Positions 1,528 to 59,678 of a stretch of 64,000 bases of DNA are shown in pieces; position 1 is the stretch's first letter; each line of letters opens with the position of its first letter. The position numbers were made by a program, and so were the translations under genes. This stretch comes from Bolinopsis microptera (taxonomy: Eukaryota; Ctenophora; Tentaculata; Lobata; Bolinopsidae): positions 7,364,084 through 7,428,083 of the forward strand of contig NC_087072.1 in the NCBI RefSeq assembly GCF_026151205.1. The letters run 5' to 3'. The notes below the pieces were generated by a model that saw only the letters and a program-made list of their open reading frames with translations, was not told the origin of the DNA and made no database searches.

Positions 1528-2855
1528 TTAGGGCTAATTTCCTTGGGGTATTTTAACTTCTAGTCCAAATTTGGGTAATAAAAGCGTTTCGAAATCACAG
1601 TAAAATAGAAGTCTACGTCTATACTCTATAGTTGATTAGTTCTATGAGTCGTTGTGCGTAAAGATGTCAATCTCTAAGATATGGCACAGTAAAACTGTTT
1701 GAGTTGTAAAAGCGATCAACTAGATGGTGTGATCAACAAGCAACACGTTTCGCAGTAAAACAGCAAGAAAATCTTTAGAAAATTAAAAACATCTCAATTA
1801 TTGTGGACCGCATATTGCTCGCTAGTATTTCAGCTCGGATAGGTCAGGACGAGGTCAGGTCACGGTCACGTGCTAGCAGATATCGCTTCACAGTGGTCCG
1901 TGTGGAGCGGTGTTGCATGCTACGCACATTTGTTCACATCTTGTGTTCTCGGACACTGATTTTATTTCGTGTGAAGTTGAGGTGCAGTACTGCCGGACGG
2001 TGGGAAATGGGCGTCACGTGATTAGGACACGTGGTCAAGCTGAGATATTCTGTGAGATATATAGTGACATACAAGGGACTGTACTCTTTGACAGGTATTT
2101 ACTGTAAATCCAGCCAGATAGAGGGCAAATGGACGTATTAAGCGGGAGCATCGCGAAAATAGGGCTTATAAGTTGTGAATAAGCAGGAATCGCGATCGAG
2201 ATCGGGAATTATGAACAGTTTGTAGTAAAAAGTTACATTGTAACCATGTTGCAATAGCGAGCAAATAATTCTCGTTAATAGTGCTCGAGCAATGCAGTAG
2301 TGGCATAAATTACTAGGTTCCGTACAGACTCAACTCTGCGCCCGTGTCAATATGTTCATTATATGCAAGCCTCTTGATTTATAAGCCATTCTACTGCTGG
2401 TAAAATTATAATTAATCAAGAAACGACAGAGCTGCAGAGTCAGAAAGATGGAATAACATTTCTTGAGAACAATAAGGTTATGATTACAAAGGCGACAACA
2501 AGGCTTGTCAAGGTTAACAAGGGCTATAGCAAGTGAGAAGCAATGTACTGTCAGCTCCAGACAATGGGGAACCTACCGATCAGAGCTAGTGTTGTAGAGG
2601 AGCTGTGTTGGAAGAGGTAGGATGTGGCTCATACACAACACTGACAAGTGATTATAGGGGCCCGGTATGACGTAAGTAATATCTGGTGTCCACTGTATAG
2701 TGTATGACAGTGAGTGAACCTACACATTGAGTGGTAATTACATATTGATAGTGTTTATACTTGATAGTGTTATATAGACAGTTATAGTGTTATACTTGAT
2801 CACTCGTGCAGTGTCTGATCAGCTTGATGGGCATGATTTCTATATTATGTTGTAG
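1528..2855. other. No gene recognised
   Basis: Short open frames at 1,803-2,107 overlap in different phases and have no domain signature. Several CACGTG-like words occur around 1,870 and 2,010-2,030, but no gene can be tied to them. Confidence 0.45.
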
Positions 2856-2858
2856 AGT

Positions 2859-3150
2859 ATGAAGGATATGAAGGATATGAAGGATATGAAGGATATGAAG
2901 GATATGAAGGATATGAAGGATATGAAGGATATGAAGGATATGAAGGATATGAAGGATATGAAGGATATGAAGGATATGAAGGATATGAAGGATATGAAGG
3001 ATATGAAGGATATGAAGGATATGAAGGATATGAAGGATATGAAGGATATGAAGGATATGAAGGATATGAAGGATATGAACGATATGAACGATATGAACGA
3101 TATGAGGAGTATGTAGGATATGAAGGATATGAGGAGTATGTAGGATATGA
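2859..3150. repeat. 9-bp minisatellite (ATGAAGGAT)n
   Basis: There are twenty-four perfect head-to-tail copies of ATGAAGGAT from 2,859 to 3,074, then three ATGAACGAT variants and degenerate units with ATGAGGAGT and ATGTAGGAT to about 3,150. Because the period is a multiple of three, the array stays open in both orientations (Met-Lys-Asp on plus, Ile-Leu-His on minus). Those frames are artefacts of the period, not protein evidence. The degenerate copies are all at the right end, which suggests expansion from the left. Confidence 0.95.
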
Positions 3151-4343
3151 AAGGTTTTTGTATCCTTAATAAATAGTATAAAGATGAAATCAGTTATATT
3201 GCACCATCGGGTTCCATTATTGTGTAACATGCATGGTACTTGCAATTAGATATACTATCTGCCATACTGTGCCTAGTATAAGATGAATTGCCATAACACA
3301 TGAACTAACTGTCAACTAACATGGTGCGTAACTAATCAGACTAATCAGACTATGTCTGGTCACCGGACTATAAAACCTCCGGTTCTTGTGAATTCCACCC
3401 GGTAAAACTCGTAAATCAGTCCAGTACAGTTTTCGTTTCAAAGATCGTACGATTCTGTAATTTAAAATTTATTTGTTCGTAACTGGAGATCTTGTTATTA
3501 TTATTGAGATATATGTAAATGTCTAGCATTGATTCCCAATACCACTGTGGTAATAGCTGGTATTACAGCCTATATGGTGTAAAATGACCTTGATATGGCG
3601 AGACTTTTAAATTAAACGTGTTTGCCAACAAGTCTTGCCATTACAAACACACAACTAATAAATAAAGCCTTTTAAAGCCATTTAAGGCCATTTGTATACT
3701 CTATAATGGTTTTGTAATAGCTCTTTAACAGGCGATAATGGCCTTGTCTAAGAAGAGATGATGTTATTTTGGGAGTATATATCCCGTCCGATATGCTCCT
3801 CGATCGAGCAGTCAATTTGTTTAAAATCCCAGAATACTTCAATCATGCAGTGAAGCCTATAATATTCTAAATTTGATCGCTTGTCTCAAAATTAAACCTC
3901 TCTTTCAGTAAATTTCATAACATCTAATCCACATAACGGAAATAACAAATTGACAGCGAGTTAAATTTCTGACATATGCTTATAATTTTCATCATGTTGA
4001 GATAACAATGGCATTGTTTGTGCATGTAGTTTTGATTAACTGGATATTATCAAAACGTCAATTTAAAAAATCAAGTCTGCTGTCTGCATGAACGAATGTC
4101 AAAATGCTTCCCAAACATTGAATAAAAAATTGCAAATTAATTCAGTTACTTTAAAAATACATTAAGCAGCTAACTGGGCCCATGAATACCTGGTCGAAAT
4201 AACCAAGGAGGCAGGAGCCTGGGTCGTTTTCACGGGTCATTCACACCGTTATAAAAACACCCTATACACAATAAATTAAATAACAACCCGCATAATATTC
4301 ACGAATTAAGTAAAATAACAACACAATAACAACCCGTATGAAT
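3151..4343. other. No gene recognised
   Basis: AT-rich intergenic sequence lying 3' of the minus-strand GPCR. I see no repeat, RNA gene or convincing poly(A) signal. Confidence 0.45.
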
Positions 4344-9616: not shown

Positions 9617-9701
9617 TTGTAGGTTTACAACCTACCAGGACGCGCGCCGAGTTGGACGGTCCAATATATGGAACAGATATTTTACGAGTATCACCCGTTA
9701 A
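9617..9701. mobile_element. Hairpin micro-element with 8-bp target duplication
   Basis: An 85-bp insertion flanked by GCAAATAA on both sides (9,609-9,616 and 9,702-9,709). It starts TTGTAGG and ends ATCACCCGTTAA. A palindrome (GTAGGTTTACAACCTAC) sits at its left end. A related copy lies in inverse orientation at about 23,533-23,620. Its right end matches the terminal repeat of the ~950-bp element at 11,680-12,628. Confidence 0.75.
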
Positions 9702-13370: not shown

Positions 13371-15324
13371 GCTTACTTACTTACTTGATTAGGTCTCCTC
13401 AATCATTCGAGTGGCCTGCACCAATGAACTCCCGTTTGTGACGTATCATCTCCCTCCAAAGTTTTCGGTCACTAGCCATCTCGCTCGCTCCTTCTAGGTC
13501 TATGTCAGTGTTTCCTGTAAACGCTGCAGCATCTTCCAGCAAACATTTCATCCAGTTCTTTCTTGGACGGCCCCTAGATCTTCTCCCATGCGCAGGGGTC
13601 CAGTTAAGCAGGTACTTAGGAAGCCTAGTGTCTGGCATTCTGGTGACATGGCCAAACCAACGCAGGCGGTTTGCTCCTATGAACGTCTCTACTGGATTTA
13701 TCTTTGCACGCTCCAGCACTTCAGTGTTTCTAACCCGATCGAGCCATCTTATCCTTAGTATTCTCCTCAAGCAACGCTGATGGAACACCTCAAAGCGATG
13801 TAGCTGCTTTTTGGTTGTGTTCCAAACCTCACTACCATATAACAATATTGTCAAAACCGCTGCCTTATAAATCCTGATCTTTGTATAAGACTGGATGTTG
13901 CGGTTTTTCCATATATTACTCAGTTGATTGAAGGCTCCGGAAGCTTTCTGAATCCTAGCTGACAGCTCACGGTCGATAGTACCGTCGCTGGAAATAATTG
14001 TACCTAAGTACGTAAAGTCACTAACTTGCTGCACTGGCGTGTCTTCAACAGTGATGTTCACTGTGGCTTCTTTCGTGTATGGCCGTTGAGAGGTTGCTTT
14101 ACCAATGACCATAGCCTCAGTCTTTTTACCATTGATTCTGAGACCTCCCTGGGCACCATACATACACAAAAGGTCAGTTGTTTCTTGAAGACCTTCCTCG
14201 CTGTTATCCATTACAGCCATGTCATCTGCATAGTCTGTATCTAACACAGTGATATCATCAACAAGCGGACTGATAGATCTTTGAAGAACCGCTCCGTGGG
14301 ACACCACTTTGTTGCTTTCTGTTCTCTCAGCAGCCACATTGAGGCAGACATTAAAAAGTGGGGGACCCTGAATGTCTCCTTGGCCACTGCCTGAACTTAC
14401 TTCAAACCATTCTGATAGTTCACCATTGTGTCTAACAGCACTGACAGTTCCATTAAAGAATGCCTGTATTATTCGAATGTATTTACATGGCAGGCCATAA
14501 TGACTGAAAGCTTTCCAAATATAATTCCTGTCGATAGAATCAAAAGCTGCCTTGAAGTCCACAAAATTTACATACAGGGGGAGATTATATTCAATGCAGT
14601 TATGTATAATAGTGCGGAGTGAATAAATCTGATCAATGCATGATATGTTCTTTCTGAACCCACACTGATTGTCTCGTAGCAAACTTTCTAAACCGTCACT
14701 CATGCGTTGTAAAATGATGATTTGATACAGTTTCGATGCTGTAGATCTTAAAGTGATCCCCCTATTATTGGAGCAATGAGAGGTATCACTCTTCTTTGGT
14801 ACAATTATCACGATGCCTTTCAACCAGTCGTCAGGCACTGCTTCTGAATTCCAAACTTTAGAGAACAATTTCTCCATCCTATCCACAAGACCACTTGCCC
14901 CATACTTTAACTGCTCATTAGAGATTTCGTTAATCCCAGCACTTTTGTGGTTCTTCAATTTTTTGAGACAGTTTAAAATCTCAAGTCTAGTGGGGGGACC
15001 ATCACCATCACCAAGATAAGAAAAGCATGGAACCACTTCAAGATGGTCCAGGTCAGACAGATCCGCATTCGTGGGAGGAGGGTTTAATAGCTCCGAAAAA
15101 TGTTCTCCCCATCTCTCTCTCTGAGCAGAGGGATCAGCAATCAACTTCCCGGATTTGTCTCTTACAGCAGTTGATTTTCGATTCTTCTTACCGGACAGTG
15201 TTTTTATCCGTTGCCAGACTTCCCTTTGCCGGCCATGGACAGCAGCTGTTTCCAGATCTGCTGCAACTCTAAGAGCCCAATTCTCGTCGTCTTTCCTGCA
15301 GCTCTTTTTGACAAGTTTCGTAGA
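13356..15324 (-). mobile_element. RTE-type LINE, 5'-truncated, with AAGT-repeat tail
   Basis: A non-LTR retrotransposon copy on the minus strand. Its 3' end is marked by an (AAGT)n tail (13,356-13,388 as ACTTACTT on plus). The same tail and the same adjoining 3' sequence (GGTCTCCTC, GTGGCCTGCACC) occur in the LINE at 25.1 kb. The 5' end is lost at about 15,322, where the coding similarity stops at an in-frame stop. RTE-clade elements typically end in short microsatellite tails. Confidence 0.85.
13399..15321 (-). CDS. LINE reverse transcriptase (5'-truncated ORF)
   Basis: The minus-strand frame is open without interruption to about 15,321. The first Met is at 15,144, but similarity to the second LINE (36.1-37.1 kb) continues upstream through a Trp-rich, Lys-rich linker, so the true protein began further 5' with an endonuclease that is missing. 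Counting from Met-15,144, reverse-transcriptase marks are TLRSTASK (131-138), the catalytic Asp in FVDFKAAFD (about 197), GSGQGDIQGPP (252-262) and the YADD box (305-308). Downstream are the thumb region and a C-terminal RWFGH and RGRPRKNW motif typical of the RTE clade, the one linked to 'craniofacial development protein 2-like' database entries. The absence of stops suggests a recent insertion, although the copy cannot mobilise itself. Confidence 0.85.
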   Translation of the reverse strand, partial: TKLVKKSCRKDDENWALRVAADLETAAVHGRQREVWQRIKTLSGKKNRKSTAVRDKSGKLIADPSAQRERWGEHFSELLNPPPTNADLSDLDHLEVVPCFSYLGDGDGPPTRLEILNCLKKLKNHKSAGINEISNEQLKYGASGLVDRMEKLFSKVWNSEAVPDDWLKGIVIIVPKKSDTSHCSNNRGITLRSTASKLYQIIILQRMSDGLESLLRDNQCGFRKNISCIDQIYSLRTIIHNCIEYNLPLYVNFVDFKAAFDSIDRNYIWKAFSHYGLPCKYIRIIQAFFNGTVSAVRHNGELSEWFEVSSGSGQGDIQGPPLFNVCLNVAAERTESNKVVSHGAVLQRSISPLVDDITVLDTDYADDMAVMDNSEEGLQETTDLLCMYGAQGGLRINGKKTEAMVIGKATSQRPYTKEATVNITVEDTPVQQVSDFTYLGTIISSDGTIDRELSARIQKASGAFNQLSNIWKNRNIQSYTKIRIYKAAVLTILLYGSEVWNTTKKQLHRFEVFHQRCLRRILRIRWLDRVRNTEVLERAKINPVETFIGANRLRWFGHVTRMPDTRLPKYLLNWTPAHGRRSRGRPRKNWMKCLLEDAAAFTGNTDIDLEGASEMASDRKLWREMIRHKREFIGAGHSND

Positions 15325-16076: not shown

Positions 16077-16554
16077 CAGTGCAGAAACCCCGATTTACCG
16101 CACAGTTTGGGGAGAGAGAAATAGTACGGTAAACAGGGGTGTACGGTAAATCATGGTTTTAACTTACAGTCCCCGTCAGATCACATGGTTTCTCTCCGCA
16201 CATAATTGGTTTCCAATTTGTCATGGTTATGGTTTGATTCACGATGTCAATCCTTCGCATCTCGCCGATCTGCATACTGTGGTTGCGAGAAGCATTATTG
16301 GATGCGCGCGCGCGACCCAGTAGTGCATCGCGCTACAAGGTTATGGTCCACAAACTCTAATATACGAGGTGATTACGAGAAACAACGAGTCTGACAAGCT
16401 TGCTTGAGATCAGGGACCCATTTATAAGCCGTATTCCAAAGGCTCACGTGATACTAAACTAAGACATTTTTTCTAAATTTTGGGGGAAAGGGAGAGGTAC
16501 GGTAAATCGGGGTTTACGGCGAATTGGGGCACGGCGAATCGGGGATTTATTGTG
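16077..16554. mobile_element. Pogo-like MITE with TA target duplication
   Basis: The left end CAGTGCAGAAACCCCGATTT and the right end (complement CACAATAAATCCCCGATT) form imperfect terminal repeats flanked by TA (16,075-16,076 and 16,555-16,556). The CAGTG...CCCCGATT(T/C)(A/G)CCG pattern resembles pogo/Tigger ends. Subterminal copies of TACGGTAAA(T/C) occur at both sides. It contains a nested hairpin element at 16,233-16,338 and no transposase. Confidence 0.65.
16233..16338. mobile_element. Hairpin micro-element, CTACAA-end subfamily
   Basis: A 106-bp insertion flanked by GGTTATGG (16,225-16,232 and 16,339-16,346). It starts TTTGATTCACGATGTCAAT and ends CGCGCTACAA, closely matching the element at 46,468-46,596. 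It is nested inside the pogo-like MITE, so it inserted later. Confidence 0.85.
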
Positions 16555-25069: not shown

Positions 25070-26133
25070 ACTTACTTACTTACTTGTACTTGAAAAGGTC
25101 TCCTCCTAGTCGTTGGAGTGGCCTGCACCACAAAGTAACTCCTTTCTCCGGTGTATTAAACCTCTCCAGTGAACCCTGTCTGTAGCTTGTTGTTCTGCAT
25201 CTTCTATCGTGATGTTATCGACACCTGTGAAGATTGCTGCATCCTCCCGGACACATGACAACCAGTTTTTCCGAGGTCTACCTCTTGACCTTTTACCATG
25301 CTTTGGGATCCAGTGCAGAAGATAGTTGGGTATTCTTTCTTCTGGCATCCTCACCACATGGCCAAACCATCGGAGTCTAGCTGCTCGTACGAAAGTATCA
25401 ACAGGGGCGATGTTAGCCCGCTTAAGTACATCAGCATTAGATACATGATAAAACCATTTTATTTTCAGGATTCTCCTTAGACATCTATGATGGAACACCT
25501 CAAATCTTTTCATCTGCGTCTGTGTGGTATTCCATACCTCACTTCCATAAAGCAGTATAGTGAGCACAGCCGCTTTGTAAATCCTGATTTTAGTTGGAGT
25601 CTTGATGTTGCGACTGTACCATATACTGCTGAGCTGATAGAATGCCCCAGAGGCCTTTTGAATTCGAGCTGAAAGTTCTTTGTCAATTGTTCCATTCGCA
25701 CTGATGATTGCACCCAAGTAAGTGAAATTGCTGACCTGCTGTATTGGGAGACCTTCCACATTGATGTCCATAGTGTCGTCTTTAGAATACGGCCTCTGCG
25801 ATGCACTTTTGCTGACAACCATGCTCTGTGTCTTGCCAGCATTAATCTTCAGACCCGCATAGGCACTGTATTTGCAGAGAAGGTCAGTGGTTTCCTGCAG
25901 CCCCTCTTTTGAGTTATCTAACATAGCCATGTCATCAGCGTAATCAGTGTCCAAAAGATGTTTCTCTTCTACCCCGGGGGCTGGCAGCTGTAATAAAGCC
26001 CCTTTACTAATGACCTTGTTCAGTTCCATAAGGTATGCCGAAAAACTCAAACAAAAGTTGAAGACTGGTGGTCCCTGTATATCACCTTGCCCAGTACCCG
26101 AGTTGACATCAAACCAACCTGTAACCTCTCCAT
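25070..26133 (-). pseudogene. RTE LINE, 3' half, split by the 10-kb transposon
   Basis: The minus-strand frame (25,106 to about 26,139) carries the second half of a reverse transcriptase: Gly-Thr-Gly-Gln-Gly-Asp-Ile-Gln-Gly-Pro-Pro, a TDYADDMAM active-site box, the thumb, and the C-terminal RWFGHV and RGRPRKNW motifs. A 3' (AAGT)n tail lies at 25,070-25,095. It starts exactly where the 5' half at 36.1 kb stops: both break at the same codon region (Asn-Gly-Glu), and the duplicated CTCTCCAT belongs to it. Before the insertion the two halves formed one LINE copy. It is a different subfamily copy from the LINE at 13.4 kb. Confidence 0.9.
26126..26133. repeat. Target-site duplication, left (CTCTCCAT)
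   Basis: The identical 8-bp sequence follows the element's right end at 36,119-36,126. It is part of the interrupted LINE. Confidence 0.92.
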
Positions 26134-27181: not shown

Positions 27182-30100
27182 ATGCCTCTCGGACATTACC
27201 TGACCTTCATCGGAGGGAAGGCTCCTTTACCTGATCCTGCTGCACTTCCGACTTCCGGGGATGTCTTGAGATACCTGTCCTTCTGTGCCACTTCTACTCT
27301 AACTGGAACTCCTCTACTTCACCAGGTGGCTCAGACTCTCTTGGACACCTACTGCTGCTCCGACTCCCACAAATCCCTTGTCGGGTTAGTTTTTTGTTAG
27401 TTTTACGCATATTGTACTGTATTTTAGAAATTCGCTGAAATTTGCGGTAACCTGTCCTTTCTGAGAACTCCTGTATTTCAATCTGTCACTTAAGTTTGGC
27501 TCCGTTAATCTGTCACTTAAGTTTGGCTCCACTTAAGATCCGTTACAGATATTGTACTTTTCGACTCTGATATTTCCGCAATGCTGCCTGCCTGAAATCA
27601 TGTTCACTCTGCCTGAAATTTGTGCTATTTGGCCTGAACCTGACCTAGAACACGGAAATCTATACTTTGTGACATTTCTTTGAACAATTGTATTACCTGA
27701 CCTGTACTTTTGTACTTGATTTCGTCGCTGAAATTTGGGGTAACCTGTCCTTTCTGAGAACTCCTGTATTGCAATCTGTCACTTAAGTTTGGCTCCGTTA
27801 ATCTGTCACTTAAGTTTGGCTCCACTTAAGATCCGTTACAGATATTGTACTTTTCGACTCTGATATTTCCGCAATGCTGCCTGCCTGAAATCATGTTCAC
27901 TCTGCCTGAAATTTGTGCTATTTGGCCTGAACCTGACCTAGAACACGAAAATCTATACTTTGTGACATTTCTTTGAACAATTGTATTACCTGACCTGTAC
28001 TTTTGTACTTGATTTTGTCGCTGAAATTTGGGGTAACCTGTCCTTTCTGAGAACTCCTGTATTTCAATCTGTCACTTAAGTTTGGCTCCGTTAATCTGTC
28101 ACTTAAGTTTGGCTCCACTTAAGATCCGTTACAGATATTGTACTTTTCGACTCTGATATTTCCGCAATGCTGCCTGCCTGAAATCATGTTCACTCTGCCT
28201 GAAATTTGTGCTATTTGGCCTGAACCTGACCTAGAACACGGAAATCTATACTTTGTGACATTTCTTTGAACAATTGTATTACCTGACCTGTACTTTTGTA
28301 CTTGATTTCGTCGCTGAAATTTGGGGTAACCTGTCCTTTCTGAGAACTCCTGTATTGCAATCTGTCACTTAAGTTTGGCTCCGTTAATCTGTCACTTAAG
28401 TTTGGCTCCACTTAAGATCCGTTACAGATATTGTACTTTTCGACTCTGATATTTCCGCAATGCTGCCTGCCTGAAATCATGTTCACTCTACCTGAAATTT
28501 GTGCTATTTGGCCTGAACCTGACCTAGAACACGAAAATCTATACTTTGTGACATTTCTTTGAACAATTGTATTACCTGACCTGTACTTTTGTACTTGATT
28601 TTGTCGCTGAAATTTGGGGTAACCTGTCCTTTCTGAGAACTCCTGTATTTCAATCTGTCACTTAAGTTTGGCTCCGTTAATCTGTCACTTAAGTTTGGCT
28701 CCACTTAAGATCCGTTACAGATATTGTACTTTTCGACTCTGATATTTCCGCAATGCTGCCTGCCTGAAATCATGTTCACTCTGCCTGAAATTTGTGCTAT
28801 TTGGCCTGAACCTGACCTAGAACACGGAAATCTATACTTTGTGACATTTCTTTGAACAATTGTATTACCTGACCTGTACTTTTGTACTTGATTTCGTCGC
28901 TGAAATTTGGGGTAACCTGTCCTTTCTGAGAACTCCTGTATTGCAATCTGTCACTTAAGTTTGGCTCCGTTAATCTGTCACTTAAGTTTGGCTCCACTTA
29001 AGATCCGTTACAGATATTGTACTTTTCGACTCTGATATTTCCGCAATGCTGCCTGCCTGAAATCATGTTCACTCTGCCTGAAATTTGTGCTATTTGGCCT
29101 GAACCTGACATAGAACACGAAAATCTATACTTTGTGACATTTCTTTGAATTGTATTACCTGACCTGTACTTTTGTACTTGATTTTGTCGCTGAAATTTGG
29201 GGTAACCTGTCCTTTCTGAGAACTCCTGTATTTCAATCTGTCACTTAAGTTTGGCTCCGTTAATCTGTCACTTAAGTTTGGCTCCACTTAAGATCCGTTA
29301 CAGATATTGTACTTTTCGACTCTGATATTTCCGCAATGCCGCCTGCCTGAAATCATGTTCACTCTGCCTGAAATTTGTGCTATTTGGCCTGAACCTGACC
29401 TAGAACACGAAAATCTATACTTTGTGACATTTCTTTGAACAATTGTATTACCTGACCTGTACTTTTGTACTTGATTTCGTCGCTGAAATTTGGGGTAACC
29501 TGTCCTTTCTGAGAACTCCTGTATTTCAATCTGTCACTTAAGTTTGGCTCCGTTAATCTGTCACTTAAGTTTGGCTCCACTTAAGATCCGTTACAGATAT
29601 TGTACTTTTCGACTCTGATATTTCCGCAATGCTGCCTGCCTGAAATCATGTTCACTCTGCCTGAAATTTGTGCTATTTGGCCTGAACCTGACCTAGAACA
29701 CGAAAATCTATACTTTGTGACATTTCTTTGAACAATTGTATTACCTGACCTGTACTTTTGTACTTGATTTCGTCGCTGAAATTTGGGGTAACCTGTCCTT
29801 TCTGAGAACTCCTGTATTGCAATCTGTCACTTAAGTTTGGCTCCGTTAATCTGTCACTTAAGTTTGGCTCCACTTAAGATCCGTTACAGATATTGTACTT
29901 TTCGACTCTGATATTTCCGCAATGCTGCCTGCCTGAAATCATGTTCACTCTGCCTGAAATTTGTGCTATTTGGCCTGAACCTGACCTAGAACACGAAAAT
30001 CTATACTTTGTGACATTTCTTTGAACAATTGTATTACCTGACCTGTACTTTTGTACTTGATTTTGTCGCTGAAATTTGGGGTAACCTGTCCTTTCTGAGA

Positions 30101-33100
30101 ACTCCTGTATTTCAATCTGTCACTTAAGTTTGGCTCCGTTAATCTGTCACTTAAGTTTGGCTCCACTTAAGATCCGTTACAGATATTGTACTTTTCGACT
30201 CTGATATTTCCGCAATGCTGCCTGCCTGAAATCATGTTCACTCTGCCTGAAATTTGTGCTATTTGGCCTGAACCTGACCTAGAACACGGAAATCTATACT
30301 TTGTGACATTTCTTTGAACAATTGTATTACCTGACCTGTACTTTTGTACTTGATTTCGTCGCTGAAATTTGGGGTAACCTGTCCTTTCTGAGAACTCCTG
30401 TATTGCAATCTGTCACTTAAGTTTGGCTCCGTTAATCTGTCACTTAAGTTTGGCTCCACTTAAGATCCGTTACAGATATTGTACTTTTCGACTCTGATAT
30501 TTCCGCAATGCTGCCTGCCTGAAATCATGTTCACTCTGCCTGAAATTTGTGCTATTTGGCCTGAACCTGACCTAGAACACGAAAATCTATACTTTGTGAC
30601 ATTTCTTTGAACAATTGTATTACCTGACCTGTACTTTTGTACTTGATTTTGTCGCTGAAATTTGGGGTAACCTGTCCTTTCTGAGAACTCCTGTATTTCA
30701 ATCTGTCACTTAAGTTTGGCTCCGTTAATCTGTCACTTAAGTTTGGCTCCACTTAAGATCCGTTACAGATATTGTACTTTTCGACTCTGATATTTCCGCA
30801 ATGCTGCCTGCCTGAAATCATGTTCACTCTGCCTGAAATTTGTGCTATTTGGCCTGAACCTGACCTAGAACACGAAAATCTATACTTTGTGACATTTCTT
30901 TGAACAATTGTATTACCTGACCTGTACTTTTGTACTTGATTTCGTCGCTGAAATTTGGGGTAACCTGTCCTTTCTGAGAACTCCTGTATTTCAATCTGTC
31001 ACTTAAGTTTGGCTCCGTAAATCTGTCACTTAAGTTTGGCTCCACTTAAGATCCGTTACAGATATTGTACTTTTCGACTCTGATATTTCCGCAATGCTGC
31101 CTGCCTGAAATCATGTTCACTCTGCCTGAAATTTGTGCTATTTGGCCTGAACCTGACCTAGAACACGAAAATCTATACTTTGTGACATTTCTTTGAACAA
31201 TTGTATTACCTGACCTGTACTTTTGTACTTGATTTCGTCGCTGAAATTTGGGGTAACCTGTCCTTTCTGAGAACTCCTGTATTTCAATCTGTCACTTAAG
31301 TTTGGCTAATTCTCTGTCCCACTTAAGATCCGTTACAGATATTGTACTTTTCGACTCTGATATTTCCGCAATGCTGCCTGCCTGAAATCATGTTCACTCT
31401 GCCTGAAATTTATGCTATTTGACCTGAACCTGACCTAGAACACGGAAATCTATACTTTGTGACATTTCTTTGAACAATTGTATTACCTGTACTTTAGTAC
31501 TTCATTCTGCCTCTACTTTAAACCTCATAATTTCTGATTGAACGTTAATAGAGGAGGTAATAAATGTTAAAATTTCAGGAGACTGAAGAAAACTCGAGAA
31601 CAAGCTCGTAAACATTCTACTTTAAGCGTTCAAACTGTCAGAAAGCGGAAGGAAGAGCTCGAGAAGAAGATTTTCATTACCTATTCTTCCTCTCCTGAAG
31701 CTCAGTCCCAGCCATCTACACCAGTAACTACTGAAGTCGAATCCGCTCTAGAGATCAACGTTGACAGTTCTGCGAGCCCTGAACCTGTTGCTGACCAGAA
31801 TCTCTCTCCCGTAACTGCTGTTTCCCCTGTCCTTGAAGTCCTTGCTGGACCTTCTGCCCAGACTCAGGTAATAACACATACATTTCAGTCACGCAATTTA
31901 CGAGAGAGAAAAAGACGACGGAGTCTACAACTGGACTCTGACACTGAGGGATCAGACAGTGATACCAACAGCGACAGCGACTTTGAGCCTGACCCGAGGT
32001 AAGAATCTCCTTCTTTATCCGTATCGATGGAAAGTTTCCGGTTTTAAGTTCAACGTTTGCACAGTGACTTTTGGCCGACCCTGTATTACTAATAATTTTA
32101 CGTAATGGCATCATAATATAATGATTAGATAAAAAGAGGATTCAAATTTCGTCAAAAATTTGCTAAATTCGACGAACAAACTTGTATTCTACAGATTTTT
32201 GGATTTTTTAACGGATTCGAATCGAGGCGACACATTCAACAGGAAAATCTCACCGGTTCGAACGCTCAAATGTAAGTTTCAACCTTGACTATTAGCAAAC
32301 AAGTAATTTGAATATTGATAAGAAACCTCATTCATCAGTGCTATTTCTGCGATGTTGCTTACATTGGTAAAGTCGTCCTTTTTTGAAAAAGTTCTGGGTT
32401 TTGGAAAAATCCGGATGTGGTTTAAATTTTAGCTTTTTAGGTACGTTCTACTGATGGATGAAATTGGAAATTGGAAGTTCCAGTTTCAATAAAATATTCC
32501 ATCCCCGTGACATCTCATCAACCGTGTCTAAAATTGTATCAATTTTGCATCAAATGTTTTCAAAGAGAAAAACGTAAATTTCAAAATTTAATGTTGAACT
32601 AATCCTTCAGGACACCACCAGCTAAGAAAGGGAGATACAACTTAATGAAACTTGAAAATCTCGCTCCTCGATTAGCCGCAGAACAGTTATCAAACGGGAC
32701 TGCAGCCCGTTTTCTCAGCAAATACAACGAGGTAGTCGGGATACAGGAGCAGGTGACAGAAAAGAAGATCCGGAACATACGGGCTAAGTCCAGGGGAGCT
32801 TTACTGGATAACCTAAAGGGTACAGCAGTCGAAGCCCTGTATTTCGACGGAAGAAAAGATAGAGGAACCCTCCTCAAAGACTCAGACGAAGTTCTCCGGC
32901 GCCAAGAAGAAGAACACATTACTTTGGTGGAACAGCCGTCCGGTCGATATCTTGGTTTCGCCACTCCTGACAGCGGAAGCGGTTAGTTAGCTAATTCCAT
33001 TATTTTCATGCTCGCGAGGATTATATTTTGTGACACCAATATTGATTGGTAGTATCTAACGTCTCATTGGTCAAACGCTGTCGAATGATACAAAAATTGG

Positions 33101-34594: not shown

Positions 34595-36118
34595 TTTTGT
34601 AAAATACCATATTTAAGTTAAAATGGGGTTTCAATTTATAGATAAGCAGCTAGTTAAGGGAAATATCTATAATATCCAACTACTTTGAAGTTATTGAAAT
34701 TTTATACTGTGATCCATCCGTGCTCCGCTATATATTTATTGGATTCTCTTGTTGTGTACTCGTTTATTTCACGGTAAAATCACGGTATCAGGGATTTGAA
34801 GAGAATTGTAATGATAACCTTGTTGTTGCCTTTTCGTTTTAACAGTCTTATTGTATTTCTAGGTTAACCTGAGTGTTTATTCCTACCGTATTGATGAGAT
34901 TAGCTACCTTATTAGTAGTAAATAGTTGGAATGATTAACAACACTCGCCGTGGTGTAATACTAATCAAGATTTTCTTTAGAACATGGTTATTTTCAACTT
35001 GGTGATGACAATGATTTTGGGCAGCTTCGGTACCAGTTTTAATAACAAGGGAGAGAACATTTTTTTCCCAATTTTATGTGGGTTTTTAAATTTAAATTTG
35101 TGTAGTTATAAGATTTAATATATATTAGAATTTTTAAAGTTTTTCATTGCAATGCAACGGATAACTTCCACAAAATGTTGTCTTCATTGTCTACCTTGAT
35201 TATACGAACTAACCATATTTCATTAAAGATTGCAGTTGCACCAAGCCCCAAGGATGGTCAGCAACCATGGAAACGGCCGGAAAGCCATATTCGATAGTTT
35301 TATTACTTCGTGGCTGGCGCTGTGGTGAACTATCATAGAAAGTGTTGCATATTTCGCGCGGAATTTGTGCCGCGCACGAGCGTACTCGCTCGCATTTGTG
35401 TAGAAATTGGAAAAATGAATGTAAACATTAAGGTTCCTAAACATGGAATTCGTTAATTATAGTTTAGTAGATCTGCTGTATAACGATCTGAGTGATCGCC
35501 AGACAGTGCTGGCAAATCGAAATTTTTTCCCGATCCATGACTCAAAGTGCCGAAGGCACAAAAGAGTCAAGGACAAGGGTTAGCGATCGAGGTTTTTTTT
35601 ATATGGTAGCTTTGCGACCGTGCGAGTGTGCGACCGTACGTGCCTGCGAGCACTGTTATCGCCCACGTGACTACCTGCGCAAAGTTATTTTGCGTGACAA
35701 TCTGAATTATATAATTGTTGGCGCGCGGCGCTGAACCAACCAAGTACATTATTAATTTCATCATGTACGTATCCCACTAGGCACTAATTAATAGCATATT
35801 ATTATTATTTTGAGTTAGTATTACTATTTTGCACAGATCCGTGTCAGGTTGCATAAACAATAAACATATGGTTACATAGAAGTATACACGATTTTCAAAT
35901 TCAATATAGAATTATATTAACTGGGCGGCGCTCGGCAGTCGGCATGCCATGTCACTTCGCCATATTTGCATGTTTATATAAACAGTAAAGACTGGGCCGT
36001 CCCCAGGTTGTATGTAATATGATAAATACGCCATCACGGATCGGGAAATTGAGCGGCCATCCACAAAAGAAAAGCGGCCGCATTTCTTGTTACCTAACTT
36101 TCAAATGGGCGATCCCTA
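34595..36118. other. Right subterminal region of the hAT-like element
   Basis: No further gene. It contains GC-rich self-complementary stretches (about 35,350-35,395) and, at 35,929-36,005, a diverged relative of the GGGCCGCGCTC micro-element (CTGGGCGGCGCTCGG ... GGCCGTCCCCAGG). No AATAAA was seen shortly after the transposase stop. Confidence 0.6.
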
Positions 36119-36126
36119 CTCTCCAT
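36119..36126. repeat. Target-site duplication, right (CTCTCCAT)
   Basis: Matches 26,126-26,133 exactly and belongs to the interrupted LINE. Confidence 0.92.
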
Positions 36127-37139
36127 TGACCCTAACAGCACTAACTGTGTGAGTGAAGAACGCCTTCATAATTCTAATGTACTTGTCAGGTAAGCCGTAG
36201 TGCTGCATACTTCTCCAAATGAACTGCCTGTCAATTGAATCAAAAGCTGCTTTGAAATCAACAAAATTAATATACAGAGGGATATTATACTCAATGCATT
36301 GGTGTATAATACAGCGGAGTGAATAAACCTGGTCAATACATGATCGATTCTGTCTAAAACCACTTTGATTTTCCCGGAGGAATCTTTCCATGCCATTGCT
36401 AAGTCTCCGCAGGAGTATCATCTGCAGGAGCTTCGAGGCTGTGGATCTTAATGTAATGTGTCTGTTGTTAGCGCAATGAGAGGTGTCACCTTTCTTTCCA
36501 ACGATGATAATAACACCTTTGGACCAATCCTCAGGAATCTTCTCATCTTCCCACACTTTCTTGAACAACACAACTAGTTGATCGACCAACCCATCCTGTC
36601 CATACTTAAGTTGCTCGTTGGTGATACCATCCACTCCTGGACTTTTGTGATTCTTGAGTTTTTTGAGGGCATCAACAATCTCGTTTCTTGTAGGAGCTTC
36701 ATCCGAATCGGAAAGGTCGTCAAAACTGGGTTGCGGAGGGATGTTTTCTAGGTCCGAAATATTGGCCTCTTGCGGGGGAGGGTTCAATAGCCTAGAGAAG
36801 TGCTCTTTCCACCTTTCTTTCTGGGCATGTGGGTCGGCAATCAACTGGCCAGATACGTCTCTAACTGCAGTTGACTGCTTCTTCTTCTTTCCAGATATGA
36901 CATTGATCTTCTGCCATACCTCACGTTGCTGACCTTTTCTCGCAGCTTCTTCCAAGTCATTGGCCATTCTACGTGCCCAGTTGTTATTGTCCACCTTGCT
37001 ACTTTTTTTAAAGAGCTTATTCAATCTAGAATACTCTGACCTGTTAGCGTTCGAATTAGGGTCTTTACGCTTAAATTCCTTACGGTTCTTCAATAATTCT
37101 TTTGTCTTCTGAGATTGGTGCCTGTCCTTCTTTTTTCGA
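36119..37139 (-). pseudogene. RTE LINE, 5' half, split by the 10-kb transposon
   Basis: The frame is open on the minus strand from about 37,139 down to the insertion point. It holds a Lys/Trp-rich linker (Val-Trp-Gln-Lys-Ile), a conserved ADPHAQKERWKEHF segment, RT blocks TLRSTASK and the catalytic Asp of FVDFKAAFD, and stops at the Asn-Gly-Glu where the 25-26-kb half begins. The endonuclease domain is missing, so this LINE was already 5'-truncated before the DNA transposon landed. Confidence 0.9.
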
Positions 37140-37216: not shown

Positions 37217-37332
37217 TTGTATCACGTCGTAACCCCCACGGTCGTTTCACCACGGTCGTTTCACTATTATCGTTCTTACGATACAGGGGGAGCCGCGCAC
37301 TCGTGCGCGGCGGGTCATACAACGTATGACAA
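37217..37332. mobile_element. Hairpin micro-element, TTGTCATACGTTG subfamily
   Basis: A 116-bp insertion between AAATCAAC at 37,209-37,216 and 37,333-37,340. It begins TTGTATCACGTCGTAAC and ends CGTATGACAA. It carries the CGCGCAC...GTGCGCG hairpin and a duplicated CACGGTCGTTTCAC segment. Relatives lie at 46,029, 46,800 and 57,447. Confidence 0.9.
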
Positions 37333-45640: not shown

Positions 45641-45841
45641 CACGAGAAGATCAAAATGGATTGCAAAAGCCGTGCAAGTGTATTCATTAAGCATTTAGAC
45701 TTTAGAGTCCTGTAAAACTGCAGTTACAAGTGTTGAGTGTGCTATGGTGGCCGAGTAAAATGGTGCAGCCGAGTAAAATCGCTCGCCCAAATTTTAAGAA
45801 AATTCTTGTGAAAAGGCCCTTTGCTTAAGCATAAAAGTGAT

Positions 45842-45961
45842 TTGGTTGACGATGTCAACCCATCGAGATCGTTGCTCTGCGAAGCAGAGCAACGATCGAC
45901 AATGGGTTGCGAAGCAAGAATGCTAGTTCGCGCGGCGCGTCGAAGCGGCGAAGTCCTTCAA
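45842..45961. mobile_element. Nested hairpin element (i), TSD AAAAGTGAT
   Basis: A 120-bp insertion, TTGGTTGACGATGTCAACCC ... GTCCTTCAA, between AAAAGTGAT at 45,833-45,841 and 45,962-45,970. It contains an 11-bp stem CGTTGCTCTGC with a GAA loop. The uninterrupted site is AAAGTGATCTAGATC in copy 2 (complement, about 47,215-47,235). Confidence 0.9.
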
Positions 45962-46028
45962 AAAAGTGATCTAAATCGGTGTATTTTTGGACGCTGATTC
46001 CGAATCACCCCCATGACTTAGGGTTAAA

Positions 46029-46121
46029 TTGTCATACGTTGTTAGTTGTATGACCCGCCGCGCACGAAGTGCGCGGCTCCCCTTATAGTGAAGCGACAGT
46101 GGGGGTCACCACGTGATACAA
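46029..46121. mobile_element. Nested hairpin element (ii), TSD ~AGGTTAAA
   Basis: About 92 bp, beginning TTGTCATACGTTG and ending CACGTGATACAA, with a 9-bp GC stem around a GAA loop (GCCGCGCAC). The left duplication is AGGGTTAAA and the right is AAGGTTAAA; copy 2 has AAGGTTAAAA unbroken. Confidence 0.8.
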
Positions 46122-46179
46122 AGGTTAAAATGCTTTTCTGGAGAGTTATGGGCAAAAAACCGTTTTGGTCACGTAATAC

Positions 46180-46239
46180 TTGATACATCCTTCGGCGGCG
46201 CGCGCTTCGCGCGCGAAAAGTGGTATGCAACGTATGTCA
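46180..46239. mobile_element. Nested hairpin element (iii), TSD ACGTAATAC
   Basis: A 60-bp insertion between ACGTAATAC at 46,171-46,179 and 46,240-46,248. It starts TTGATACATCC and ends CGTATGTCA(A), with a CGCGCGC stem and TTC loop. It is a shortened relative of 49,119-49,220. Confidence 0.9.
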
Positions 46240-46358
46240 ACGTAATACTAATAGGCTAGTAAGTAGTAAAATACGAATTCGATTGTTTAGGGCTCGGGTT
46301 AGGGTTGTGGTAAGGGTTATGGTTAGCTTCGCGCGGGGTTATGGTTAGATTTATATTA

Positions 46359-46446
46359 CTGGGCCGCGCTCAGCCTGTCATTCCGCCTAATCTCTATTCA
46401 GAAATGTTGTTTACCAACATTAAAGCCTGGGGTCCTCAGGTAAGAC
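46359..46446. mobile_element. Nested hairpin element (iv), TSD TTATATTA
   Basis: An 88-bp insertion between TTATATTA at 46,351-46,358 and 46,447-46,454. It contains GGGCCGCGCTCAGCCTGTCA, shared with 56,957-57,041 and, diverged, with about 35,929-36,005. Confidence 0.75.
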
Positions 46447-46467
46447 TTATATTATTAGGGTTGGGAT

Positions 46468-46596
46468 TTAATTGACGATGTCAATTCATCTCAGCTCGGC
46501 GCGGCACAGTAGCGCATCTCGCCGATCTAGAGATGTCGCTGTGAGAAGCCTCATTGAGTGCGCGCGGGCGCGGCACAGTAACGCATCGCGCTACAA
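46468..46596. mobile_element. Nested hairpin element (v), TSD GGTTGGGAT
   Basis: A 129-bp insertion between GGTTGGGAT at 46,459-46,467 and 46,597-46,605. It starts TTAATTGACGATGTCAATTC and ends CGCGCTACAA, like 16,233-16,338. Confidence 0.9.
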
Positions 46597-46799
46597 GGTT
46601 GGGATTAGGGTTTATGTAAAACCGTTCTGTACGGCTGCAAAACCATAAAAACCAAAGTCACGTGAAATTTTTGGGCGCGCGAATTAGTAAAAGCCATTAC
46701 AATGGCTGTCATTTCCAATTTGAATTATCAATTTCAACTTAACTTTTCATTAAAATGTAGGAACAATTATTTTTCACTTTGAGTTAACCTGAGTTTGCT

Positions 46800-46908
46800 T
46801 TGTTATACGTTGTATAACCCGCCGCGCACGAGTGCGCGGCTCCCCTAATTTATCGCAATAACGATAAAGTGGAGTGAATACGACCGTGGGGGTCACGACG
46901 TGATACTA
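46800..46908. mobile_element. Hairpin micro-element, TTGTTATACGTTG copy
   Basis: 109 bp between AGTTTGCT (46,792-46,799) and AGTTTGCC (46,909-46,916), seven of eight bases matching. It begins TTGTTATACGTTGTATAACC and ends ACGTGATACTA, and carries the CGCGCAC hairpin. Confidence 0.8.
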
Positions 46909-46935
46909 AGTTTGCCGGCTCTGATCTTAGTCTTA

Positions 46936-47288
46936 CTAAATCGCTCGCCCAAAAATTTCACGTGACTTTGGTTTTGCAGCCGTACAAAACGGTTTTACAT
47001 AAACCCTAATCTCAACCCTAACCCTAACCCCGAAGCTATCCATAATCTTAACCACAACCCTAACCGCAACCCTAACCCGAGCCCTAAATAATCGAATTCA
47101 CGTTTTACTAGCCTCATGTCACGTGACCAAAACGGTTTTTTGCCCATAACTCTCCAGGGAAGCATTTTAACCTTACGTCATGGGGGGTGATTCGGAATCA
47201 GCGTCCAAAAATTCACCGATCTAGATCACTTTCATGCCTAAAGGGCCTTTTCACAAGAATTTTCTTAAAATTTGGGCGAGCGATTTAG
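46936..47288. mobile_element. Mariner-like MITE, copy 2 (uninterrupted)
   Basis: 353 bp flanked by TA. The terminal repeat is CTAAATCGCTCGCCCAAA at the left, inverted at the right. The interior includes a run of CCCTAA-like hexamers (46,999-47,090) resembling the metazoan telomere repeat. It has no coding capacity. Removal of the five insertions from copy 1 gives the same sequence in reverse orientation. Confidence 0.85.
46999..47090. repeat. Interstitial telomere-like (CCCTAA)n tract
   Basis: Degenerate CCCTAA/TTAGGG hexamers lie within the mariner-like MITE, and inverted at about 46,285-46,345 in the other copy. Since they travel with the MITE they are not evidence of a chromosome end. Confidence 0.8.
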
Positions 47289-48604
47289 TAGGAGCGAAGT
47301 TTGCCGGTTTGCTTTCCATTTATAAAACGACAAAGCTCATTTGGTTCATTAAACCATTCAAATTGGCTGTTTTACACATTTAGTGAATGCTTTGGAAAAG
47401 TAATACAAGGGTTTATATTATATTTAATTATAGAGCAATAAATAATTTCGATCCTAACTCATATTAAATACTACCAAGTAACAATATTTAAATATTGAAA
47501 CAGATAAAGCTCAAGCTTTTAAATAAATATGTATCCACGGAAGAATAATTTATCCGTTCCATTTTCTCGACAAAAATTAATGTTCCTGAGTAAAATTCGG
47601 CAAATATAAAATCCTTAGATTTTAAATCTGTTGCGTGCGAAACAGACCTATTTATATGACGTTAAATTTTAGATTGATATGTTTGGTGGTACGGTTGATA
47701 TGATACAGGTTAAAGAAACAAATATTTATTACTTTACTAACTACAAAGTACAGTCTAAGTCAATGATTCAATAGAAGATCGTTCACATGTGACGTAAACT
47801 AGTCTAACAAGGACGGGGTATGGACAAGTTACTTAGTTAGTGTAATTTCTACACAGCGTAAAGTGACTCACAGACGGGGAGGGTCAGGGGGTCAAAAAGG
47901 CTGACGTGAGATGTGAACGATCCCTCATAGTGTAAACAATTTAAATTATCCTACAATTAAATAGTTTTTTCTTGACATGCAGAAATGAAACAAATATTCA
48001 ATTTAATTTAGTGAATTTAGTTATTTGAAAAATAACTATCGATCTAAATGACGCAGAATCTTAAATACATAATTTATTCAAATATCAAATTTAATAGTTA
48101 AATAAGTTTAGATAATTAAATAAAATAAGAATGCTTCAGTGTTCACACTGTTGAACTTTAATGCAGACTGCAGGTTTGGTTCAGTTCTAGATTCGGTTCG
48201 GGTGCGTGGCTCCACATTTTACCTGTTGATTGATTTGAGCCGCGCATCCGACTATCAATCGAATCCAAAACCAAACCGTTAAGTTCAGCAGCGTTTTAAT
48301 TCGATACCATGCATCAGAGGTAGGAAAATAAAATGTCCAAAAATATACAAGATGTTTGAACGGTACACTAGAATGTATGTTCGAAGTTCGAATCAATTTA
48401 CATTAGAAATCGGAACTATTAAATTTAACCAACTCCGAGCATGGTTTTTGCGGAAGATTTCGTTTACGTCCGATAACAAATAAGTCCTAAATAATTTAAC
48501 CGAAAATTACCCCATCTTAAACAAATTGCATCTATTCTCTAGCAGGTTCGGGTTCATTGGTCTAAAAACTTTCCCCTATATAATATTGTCCTATGATCCT
48601 AAAA
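47289..48604. other. No gene; one MITE at 47,775-47,925
   Basis: Downstream of the TDH gene. Other than the MITE, no feature is seen. Confidence 0.45.
47775..47925. mobile_element. MITE, GTTCACATGTGACGTAAAC family
   Basis: GATCGTTCACATGTGACGTA at the left and the complement of GATCGTTCACATCTCACGTC at the right. About 150 bp. Same family as 41,045 and 7,623. Confidence 0.7.
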
Positions 48605-55219
<6,615 letters not shown>

Positions 55220-56956: not shown

Positions 56957-57041
56957 TTATTGGGCCGCGCTCAGCCTGTCATTCCGCCGAATCTCTATTC
57001 GTTTATGTTTATGAACATGATAGCCTGAGGTCCCCAAGTAA
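56957..57041. mobile_element. Hairpin micro-element, GGGCCGCGCTC family
   Basis: An 85-bp insertion between GTATCAAC at 56,949-56,956 and 57,042-57,049. It starts TTATTGGGCC and ends CCCCAAGTAA, forming short inverted ends. Same family as nested element (iv). Confidence 0.88.
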
Positions 57042-57067: not shown

Positions 57068-57159
57068 ATTTCCAGTATCAATTTGTTTAATATACGTTTG
57101 CTCTAACTAACTATAGTTAGTTAGAGCAAACGTATATTAAACAAATTGATACTGGAAAT
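57068..57159. repeat. 92-bp perfect palindrome, no spacer
   Basis: The arms 57,068-57,113 and 57,114-57,159 are exact reverse complements centred on AACTATAGTT. Pairing stops at the next base on each side. It lies 27 bp to the right of a hairpin micro-element. Confidence 0.93.
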
Positions 57160-57446
57160 ATATATATATAAACCATGGAGCCATCTCGCTTGCAGTAGCG
57201 CGCGTGAAACAAGCGCGTCACTCAGTACGCGTATACACATTACATGGCTATGTCATATTATATGTGAAAATATACGTCATACTTAACTTAACCGGCCACT
57301 TGTTGTATCAAAGTACCCACCCATTATTCCTTGTGCTTTCTTCTTCTGTAACTGCACAACTTTTCCATGTTATCGACTTTCGACTGTGGTGACCGAGTAG
57401 TACAGTATCATTTTTAAAAGGGTTTTAAGGCCTAGCTCGAATAAGC

Positions 57447-57525
57447 TTGTCATACGTTGTATGACCCGCCGCGCTCCCCCTGTATCACCTAGTGAAACGA
57501 CCGTGGATGTCACAACGTGATACAA
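57447..57525. mobile_element. Hairpin micro-element with GAATAAGC duplication
   Basis: A 79-bp insertion between GAATAAGC at 57,439-57,446 and 57,526-57,533. It begins TTGTCATACGTTGTATGACC and ends CAACGTGATACAA. It lacks most of the GC hairpin seen in its relatives, so that hairpin is dispensable for insertion. Confidence 0.92.
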
Positions 57526-58890: not shown

Positions 58891-59202
58891 GCGCTAACGG
58901 TAAACAAAAAATAAATAGTTAACAGAAGACATCGCGACAAAAATACACTGAATGTGATTATAAGATCCAGTTTCAGCACGGATAATTCATAAGAACTGAC
59001 TCAAATTTAATGATGATTTTAACGACTAGTAATTATGAGTTGGAGTTCATACAGTTTTATGAGTGACCCCCGCAGGTATAAGAGTTACAACCCCAGTAAT
59101 AAGGATGATGTGACAACATTACCTCACAAGTATTAACAGCGAACATTCATCATCACACCGTCTTACAATCCACACATGCTGTGAAAGTTCTGCCACCCAT
59201 TT
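58891..59202. other. No gene recognised
   Basis: AT-rich sequence to the left of the 22-bp array. Confidence 0.4.
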
Positions 59203-59406
59203 GTGGTCAAGCGCAAGATGCATCGTGGTCAAGCGCAAGATGCACCGTGGTCAACTCTACGATGCACCATGGTCAAGCGCACGATGCGCCGTGGTCAAAC
59301 GCACGATGCACCGTGGTCAAACGCACGATGCACCGTGGTCAAGCGCACGATGCACCATGGTCAAGCGCACGATGCACCGTGGTCAAGCGCACGATGCACC
59401 GTGGTC
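59203..59406. repeat. 22-bp minisatellite, nine copies
   Basis: The unit is GTGGTCAAGCGCACGATGCACC, with variants at positions 1 (A/G), 9 (A/G) and 13-15. Since 22 is not a multiple of three, all three plus frames cycle through the same 22-residue pattern, and all stay open. This explains the three overlapping open frames. Confidence 0.95.
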
Positions 59407-59678
59407 TATGGTAGGGGAGCGCTGGTTCCGGGGTTCGAGAGTGTAGCTGCGCTCGAATATCTTGTCCTCGCACAGCGCGTTGCTGCAGTTTACAAGGATG
59501 TGTTTTACTACGTCTGGGACCACCTACGAGGAATGTTAGCACTATTATTAGGAGCTCTTCGGAGTTAGGGAGCTCAGTATGTTTAAGCTAAGTACGTTAA
59601 TAACTAGCGATATAATCAACTTCATCATTTCATTGTCTGGATAATTGTCGTTAGTAAATTTTCAAGAAGAAAACAAAC

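Follow-up and report, generated by a model that had tools for sequence, protein, structure and literature searches.

Within a 64,000-nucleotide stretch of the Bolinopsis microptera genome, here called the window (C1:7364084-7428083), several short palindromic sequences are flanked by duplications of 8-9 bp. The locus raises the question of what these sequences are, and which feature of their ends a transposase would read. They were followed through a genome of 264.65 Mb in 232 contigs, of which C1-C13 measure 15-26 Mb each. The elements are real, abundant and MITE-like, and their end architecture is unusual and statistically strong.

Elements of the window

A preliminary description had listed 12 elements with 8-9-bp duplications. 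All 12 were read and all are short elements with a target site duplication (TSD) of that length; two starts shift by 1-3 bp, and the TSD is exact in nine and has one mismatch in three (Table 1). The window's 12 elements supplied families A to F, and families G and H were recognised at loci outside the earlier set. This gives seven families, A, B, C, E, F, G and H, with C2 and D as relatives of C (Table 2). Across families, elements start with TTG, TTA or TTC.

Table 1 Short elements of the window. Coordinates are window positions; TSDs given as two sequences are the left and right copies.
Family	Position	Strand	Length (bp)	TSD	Remarks
F	9617..9701	+	85	GCAAATAA	TSD on both sides; copies found in the genome
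C	16234..16338	+	105	GGTTATGGT (9 bp)	start corrected from 16233
A	37217..37332	-	116	AAATCAAC	
D	45842..45961	+	120	AAAAGTGAT (9 bp)	pairs: left end 7/7, right end 3/7
A	46029..46121	+	93	GGGTTAAA/AGGTTAAA (one mismatch)	7-bp insertion near left end
B	46180..46240	-	61	CGTAATAC	internally shortened
E	46356..46443	+	88	GATTTATA/GACTTATA (7/8)	starts TTACTGGG; start corrected from 46359; equals L001 1828
C2	46468..46596	+	129	GGTTGGGAT (9 bp)	left arms AATTGAC/GTCAATT differ from C by a compensated change
A	46800..46908	+	109	AGTTTGCT/AGTTTGCC (one mismatch)	left end TTGTTATACGTTGTATAAC, a compensated double change relative to A
B	49119..49220	+	102	TCCGCTTG	
E	56957..57041	+	85	GTATCAAC	
A	57447..57525	+	79	GAATAAGC	

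When the window was scanned for stretches of 50-200 bp that run from TT to AA and are flanked by an exact 8-bp TSD, 19 rows were returned, including two pairs that are the same place shifted by one base. The reversed window returned 9 rows, and three Markov simulations returned 3, 4 and 0. By itself such a scan is noisy, because other terminus pairs gave up to 13 rows; real elements are set apart by palindromes at both ends and by copies elsewhere. Element density in the window is above average, and 24 transposase loci (107,324 bases) held one both-ended copy, of family E.

The element cluster at 45.8-46.6 kb lies within one arm of a fold-back repeat (window 45775-47310), fragments of which recur at other loci. 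Its arms, at about 45775-46356 and at 46930-47310, align after removal of the inserted elements. In the second arm the D site is empty, with a single copy of the TSD; the 28 bases compared there differ by 3 substitutions and 1 insertion. The A site is also empty there, again with a single TSD copy; of its 4 substitutions and 1 deletion, one difference is an artefact of a join that is one base short. The B site is diverged in that arm.

Other features of the window include a segment at 57097-57268, perhaps a rearranged G copy, in which what look like reversed family-G ends lie beside a long perfect palindrome. Tandem arrays occupy 27393-31521 (293-bp units), 2779-3190 (9-bp) and 59181-59450 (22-bp). 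Reverse-transcriptase fragments with RVT_1 matches, two of them also matching DUF6451, lie at 13399-15144, 25106-26050 and 36116-37093 (- strand).

Copy number and target site duplications

The 19-bp left end of family A had 2,054 exact matches in the genome (1,027 + 1,027), and the reversed pattern had 0. Loci fetched for this end were the first 30 of at least 100 places listed. A first look at the genome gave 1359 candidates for A, 1703 for C, 1061 for H, 1174 for F and 725 for B, of which the best 40 of each were scored. Among the matches listed, identity of full-length rows was 81-100% in A, 90-100% in B, 96-100% in C, 91-100% in F and 93-100% in H. In many A rows the alignment begins at query base 17, a consequence of the 7-bp insertion near the left end of the query copy.

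For a survey of TSDs, the ends were the sole criterion for picking copies of the seven families from the loci fetched; holding these boundaries constant, we then determined the TSD length. The expectation that further copies would have consistent boundaries and duplications was borne out in this set: an exact TSD of 8 or 9 bp was found in 156 of 231 copies, one of 7 bp in a single copy and one of 5-6 bp in none. TSD length depended on the family, being mainly 8 bp in A and B, mainly 9 bp in C and G, and mixed in E, F and H (Table 2). The base composition of the TSDs departed only slightly from randomness, by no more than 0.22 bit per position.

Table 2 Families and relatives: ends, exact TSDs (8 bp + 9 bp, per copies surveyed), pairs out of 7 in the left and right terminal palindromes, and left-right inverted identity out of 19.
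Family	Ends	Exact TSDs	Left pairs	Right pairs	Inverted identity
A	TTGTCATACGTTGTATGAC ... GTGATACAA	42 + 2 /61	7	4	12
B	TTGACATACGTTGCATG ... ACATGTATCAA	19 + 0 /24	5	6	12
C	TTGATTCACGATGTCAATC ... ATCGCGCTACAA	4 + 21 /32	6	6	10
C2	TTAATTGACGATGTCAATT		7		
D	TTGGTTGACGATGTCAACC		7	3	
E	TTACTGGGCCGCGCTCAG ... CCCCAGGTAA	11 + 5 /29	5	5	10
F	TTGTAGGTTTACAACCTAC ... ACCCGTTAA	16 + 5 /35	7	5	8
G	TTCACATAGCCATGTG ... GGTTAGAGCAA	2 + 11 /20			
H	TTGACCATTGTTAATGGTC ... ACATCCGTCAA	6 + 12 /30	7	5	13

Copies were 56-149 bp long, inside the length limits of the scan, and element size is about 56-150 bp. Nested insertions with duplications were found for A within A (L057) and for G within A (L028). The 56-bp family-A copy at C7:19933095-19933335 (L146), which has an exact 8-bp TSD, suggests that little beyond the two ends is needed; alternatively, it was shortened by a deletion after insertion.

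TSD pairs were also enumerated without any terminus or palindrome condition in 337,990 fetched bases, as pairs of end 8-mers spanning 50-250 bp and having at least 4 different exact 8-bp TSDs. Besides tandem and simple repeats, 22 rows were returned, all of them A, B, C, E, F, G or H; some were shifted by one base where the TSD is 9 bp. This sample was enriched for A, B, C, F and H, copies of which had been fetched, while E and G were untargeted. Selection possibly entered the family set, as H was first noticed in a palindrome-weighted scan and the 12 window elements had been chosen partly by their palindromes. The earlier proposal that elements with differing interiors have a common end logic held: this logic is TT plus hairpin at one end, hairpin plus AA at the other, and 8-9-bp TSDs, and the condition-free enumeration returns the same families.

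Terminal palindromes

The preliminary description had placed a palindrome near one end of the elements. The palindrome is present, but the claim was understated, since both ends have one. At nearly every family end, a 17-bp stem-loop of 7-3-7 geometry starts exactly 2 bp inside the element (TT-arm-loop-arm ... arm-loop-arm-AA). When offsets 0 to 39 were compared over 12 ends from six consensuses, offset 2 stood out with a mean of 5.75 Watson-Crick pairs out of 7; no other offset exceeded 2.58. The 7-3-7 pairing fails at the right end of D (3/7), and the G ends have a 5-4-5 stem-loop, also directly after TT. The loop is GTT or GAT in 11 of 14 ends. A GC stem with a GAA or TTC triloop, described earlier as usual, is visible in the sequences of A, B, D and H and absent from the consensus of C, E, F and G.

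Arm sequences vary from family to family, and the left and right ends of a single element also have unlike arms. When left and right arms were crossed within a family (A, B, C, E, F, H), 2-5 pairs were formed, versus 4-7 for each end with itself. In an arm-swap test on 15 ends, including the right end of D, the mean fell from 5.67 to 2.47 pairs, and 0 of 200,000 permutations reached the observed value. The 12 ends without C2 and D gave 5.67 versus 2.40 (0/200,000); for the six left or the six right ends alone, 304 of 200,000 permutations reached the observed value in each case. The left and right ends of a family form imperfect terminal inverted repeats (Table 2).

Covariation and folding

Fourteen ends were aligned, leaving out the failing right end of D and both G ends with their other geometry. 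Kinship among the rows can inflate the covariation figures that follow: paired cells made up 87.8% versus 50.6% in shuffles (0/500), two-sided cells numbered 39 versus 12.2 (0/500 reached the observed number), and the covariation score was 0.970 versus 0.241 (0/500), falling to 0.159 or less when the partner was slid by 1-3 columns. Two measures were weaker. Pairs with two-sided change numbered 7 versus 5.6 (reached by 63/500 shuffles), and further pair types 18 versus 14.5 (21/500).

Within families, distinct end sequences showed 6 compensated changes (A 1, H 3, C 1, D/C2 1) versus 25 one-sided ones, one row of the D/C2 group probably being a chance match. Once inserted, individual copies mainly drift; it is chiefly in comparisons between source families that compensation appears.

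Single-stranded DNA folds of A, B, D, E, F, G and H were more stable than those of shuffles (z -2.3 to -5.8), and the fold of C was no better than shuffles (z -0.54). In the best predicted fold, A, D, E, F and G form the left terminal stem and H forms four pairs of it; B and C lack the left terminal hairpin there. Arm mismatches were A-C in 9 cases and G-T in 4 (hand count), too few for claiming a folding strand. An Rfam search gave one match, mir-8499, at E 0.91 and far below the gathering score.

Search for a coding partner

Profile searches of the genome contigs gave 58 matches for Merlin (PF12762), 88 for MULE (PF10551) and at least 150 for hAT (PF05699; 150 of 366 candidates scored). The profiles for P (PF21787) and KDZ (PF18758) had 0 matches here, and the control genomes were also without a match. 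The 24 transposase loci that were read comprised 12 Merlin, 3 hAT and 9 MULE loci. A long transposase-coding element with ends like those of the short elements, as the preliminary description had envisaged, did not turn up at them: none held a TT...AA stretch longer than 300 bp that combined 9 or more of 14 end pairs with an exact TSD of 8 or 9 bp. A comparison of ends holds only for loci with readable ends, and at many of the 24 the true ends of the coding element are unreadable. Readable Merlin ends were GGCAG or AGGTC, hAT ends (one locus, 8-bp TSD) were CAGGGGTC / CAGGGGTCGACC, and MULE ends (2 families of 9 loci) were AGGGCGG or GTGMCGTAT; all of these are unlike the element ends.

The base after the 19-bp left end of A is C in 1,998 of the 2,054 matches. 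Among the 56 copies with another base, 20 were read, and no autonomous partner was found in these.

An apparent element of 5,640 bp with A ends and an exact TSD (L155, C1:12790300-12798400) is an A copy that carries another insertion of ~5.5 kb between duplicated TTGTATGAC (9 bp), and was rejected as a partner. This inserted segment (GGCTAATATT...GTCTACC) contains long tandem arrays, and four peptides from it had no Pfam match. A 667-bp interval with A ends had a TSD of 7/8 (L157); neither it nor L156 contained an open frame of 120 codons. Facing pairs of A left ends on C1, taken as possible long elements, were separate short elements in the cases fetched.

Two further palindromic sequences were noticed. 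A Merlin copy (L048, C5:11704000-11708400) has inverted repeats of ~298 bp starting with AGGTCAAAGACC, itself a 4-3-4 palindrome. The palindromic stretch TTGAACACGTGACGTGTTACCATGGT occurs at two loci, L065:567 (-) and L068:590 (-), and is possibly a further family.

Comparison with known elements

Like MITEs, the elements are short, non-coding and of high copy number, with constant ends and a fixed TSD length. They differ in that each end alone is a 7-3-7 palindrome 2 bp from the terminus, kept as pairing and not as sequence, and in that the left and right ends form only weak inverted repeats (8-13 of 19 identical). The Repbase label 'DNA8' stands for non-autonomous DNA transposons that have 8-bp TSDs and no further classification. 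Merlin elements have 8-9-bp TSDs and ends of the GG... type; the TSD length fits the elements described here and the ends do not. Ends of hAT elements are of the CA...TG type, and those found here are TTG, TTA or TTC, with 9-bp TSDs in C and G. In IS200/IS605-type elements, the ends are recognised as hairpins. Among the papers listed by full-text searches of one open-access library, none has a title or abstract that describes the combination of end palindromes and TSDs, which leaves the elements, as the preliminary description had put it, a candidate for something undescribed.

Among the printed structures compared, Helitron2 is the nearest. It has hairpins at both ends, compensatory changes in a related pair and a 5' T (PMC3627910, in part). 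The same part of that source notes that terminal hairpins matter in the IS200/IS605 family, which lacks inverted repeats and TSDs; hairpin ends are only proposed for our elements, and these do have TSDs. For Mutator-like Tm1, the accessible text reports TSDs of 8-10 bp in 45 of 53 elements, mostly 9 bp and without clear consensus, and MITE-like members (PMC3169594, in part). The TSDs found here fit that range. Tm1, as described there, has long composite inverted repeats, and the readable MULE ends of the present genome also differ from the elements.

Origin and recognition of the elements

The elements have been mobile in the past. They have fixed boundaries, TSDs and high copy number, they are nested, two empty sites are present, and their end palindromes persist with changing letters. 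We regard them, with moderate confidence, as several related non-autonomous MITE-type families of DNA transposons whose ends would be read mainly by their self-complementary shape, by a cut-and-paste transposase acting in trans. Such an enzyme, presumably of the DDE type, would cut the target with a stagger of 8-9 bp. It may recognise each end mainly as a predicted hairpin on the strand ending AA-3', or as a cruciform, and may also use the TT and the preferred loop GTT or GAT. Joining of the 3' ends to the target, followed by gap repair, would then produce the TSD.

Shape is preferred over sequence because the two ends of an element, both of which a single enzyme has to use, differ in their half-sites, and each end pairs with itself. 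Our confidence is only moderate because of the weaker covariation measures and the hairpins missing from the folds of B and C. The right ends of D (3/7) and A (4/7), the other geometry of G and the excess of one-sided over compensated changes also count against recognition by shape, as do the weaker permutation result for left or right ends alone, the poor folding of C and the negative search for a transposase with such ends at the 24 loci and in the divergent A copies that were read.

The palindromes may instead be ordinary dyad sites in duplex DNA, at which a dimeric transposase, either a separate one for each family or a tolerant one, contacts a pair of inverted 7-bp half-sites without any hairpin. 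We consider this unlikely, though worth weighing: the loop is usually the same at both ends of a family (GTT in A, B and H; GAT in C), the partial identity of left and right ends agrees with it, and the left end of A is exact in 67 of 71 anchored copies, many of which come from loci chosen by that end. It is difficult to reconcile with the two ends of one element, which differ in their half-sites despite having to serve the same enzyme, and whose crossed arms form only 2-5 pairs.

Somewhat less probable still is that the families are unrelated small derivatives of MULE, Merlin and hAT elements, with palindromes that play no part in recognition and owe both their origin and their continued pairing to templated repair of quasi-palindromes. 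Such repair could also account for the pair compensation. Interior stems likewise vary between copies, transposase domains of all three groups are present in the genome, and the known TSD lengths fit, Merlin having 8-9 bp, Tm1 8-10 bp (PMC3169594, in part) and hAT 8 bp (PMC10741241, in part). However, the ends of the coding copies differ where they can be read, and templated repair leaves the exact 2-bp offset and the same palindrome size at both ends of six families unexplained. Rolling-circle (HUH) elements, in a Helitron2 or Replitron form with terminal hairpins, are a very improbable source. The Helitron2 hairpins and their compensatory changes in one related pair speak for them, as do Replitron insertions, which can give TSDs of 2-8 bp (PMC10741241, in part). 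In contrast to Helitron2, which according to the available part of PMC3627910 has asymmetric inverted repeats and either no TSD or one of 7-19 bp and longer, the elements have symmetrical TT...AA ends and TSDs fixed at 8 or 9 bp; the comparison is by termini and TSDs. No asymmetric inverted repeat was found in the seven families (best 10-mer 4-6/10, versus a random mean of 5.8). Direct terminal repeats, which are short in Replitrons (5-11 bp; PMC10741241, in part), were not found either, the best direct 8-mer being 3-5/8 in the seven families.

Under recognition by shape, the number of enzymes is a separate matter. The preliminary description had suggested one transposase moving very small templates. 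The common end logic agrees with that, but a few related enzymes are as likely as one, because TSD length varies by family and G has a 5-4-5 hairpin. A bolder reading, which we put forward tentatively and consider doubtful, is that an undescribed group of eukaryotic cut-and-paste transposases reads a terminal 7-3-7 hairpin, by structure, TT and preferred loop, and not by shared sequence. Templates of 56-150 bp would then be mobile by virtue of two such hairpins.

If shape defines the ends, a few enzymes could mobilise many miniature elements that look unrelated. Other genomes could be searched by a simple rule, TT and a 7-3-7 stem-loop at both ends with an 8-9-bp TSD, and cut-and-paste transposition that reads structure would become directly testable.
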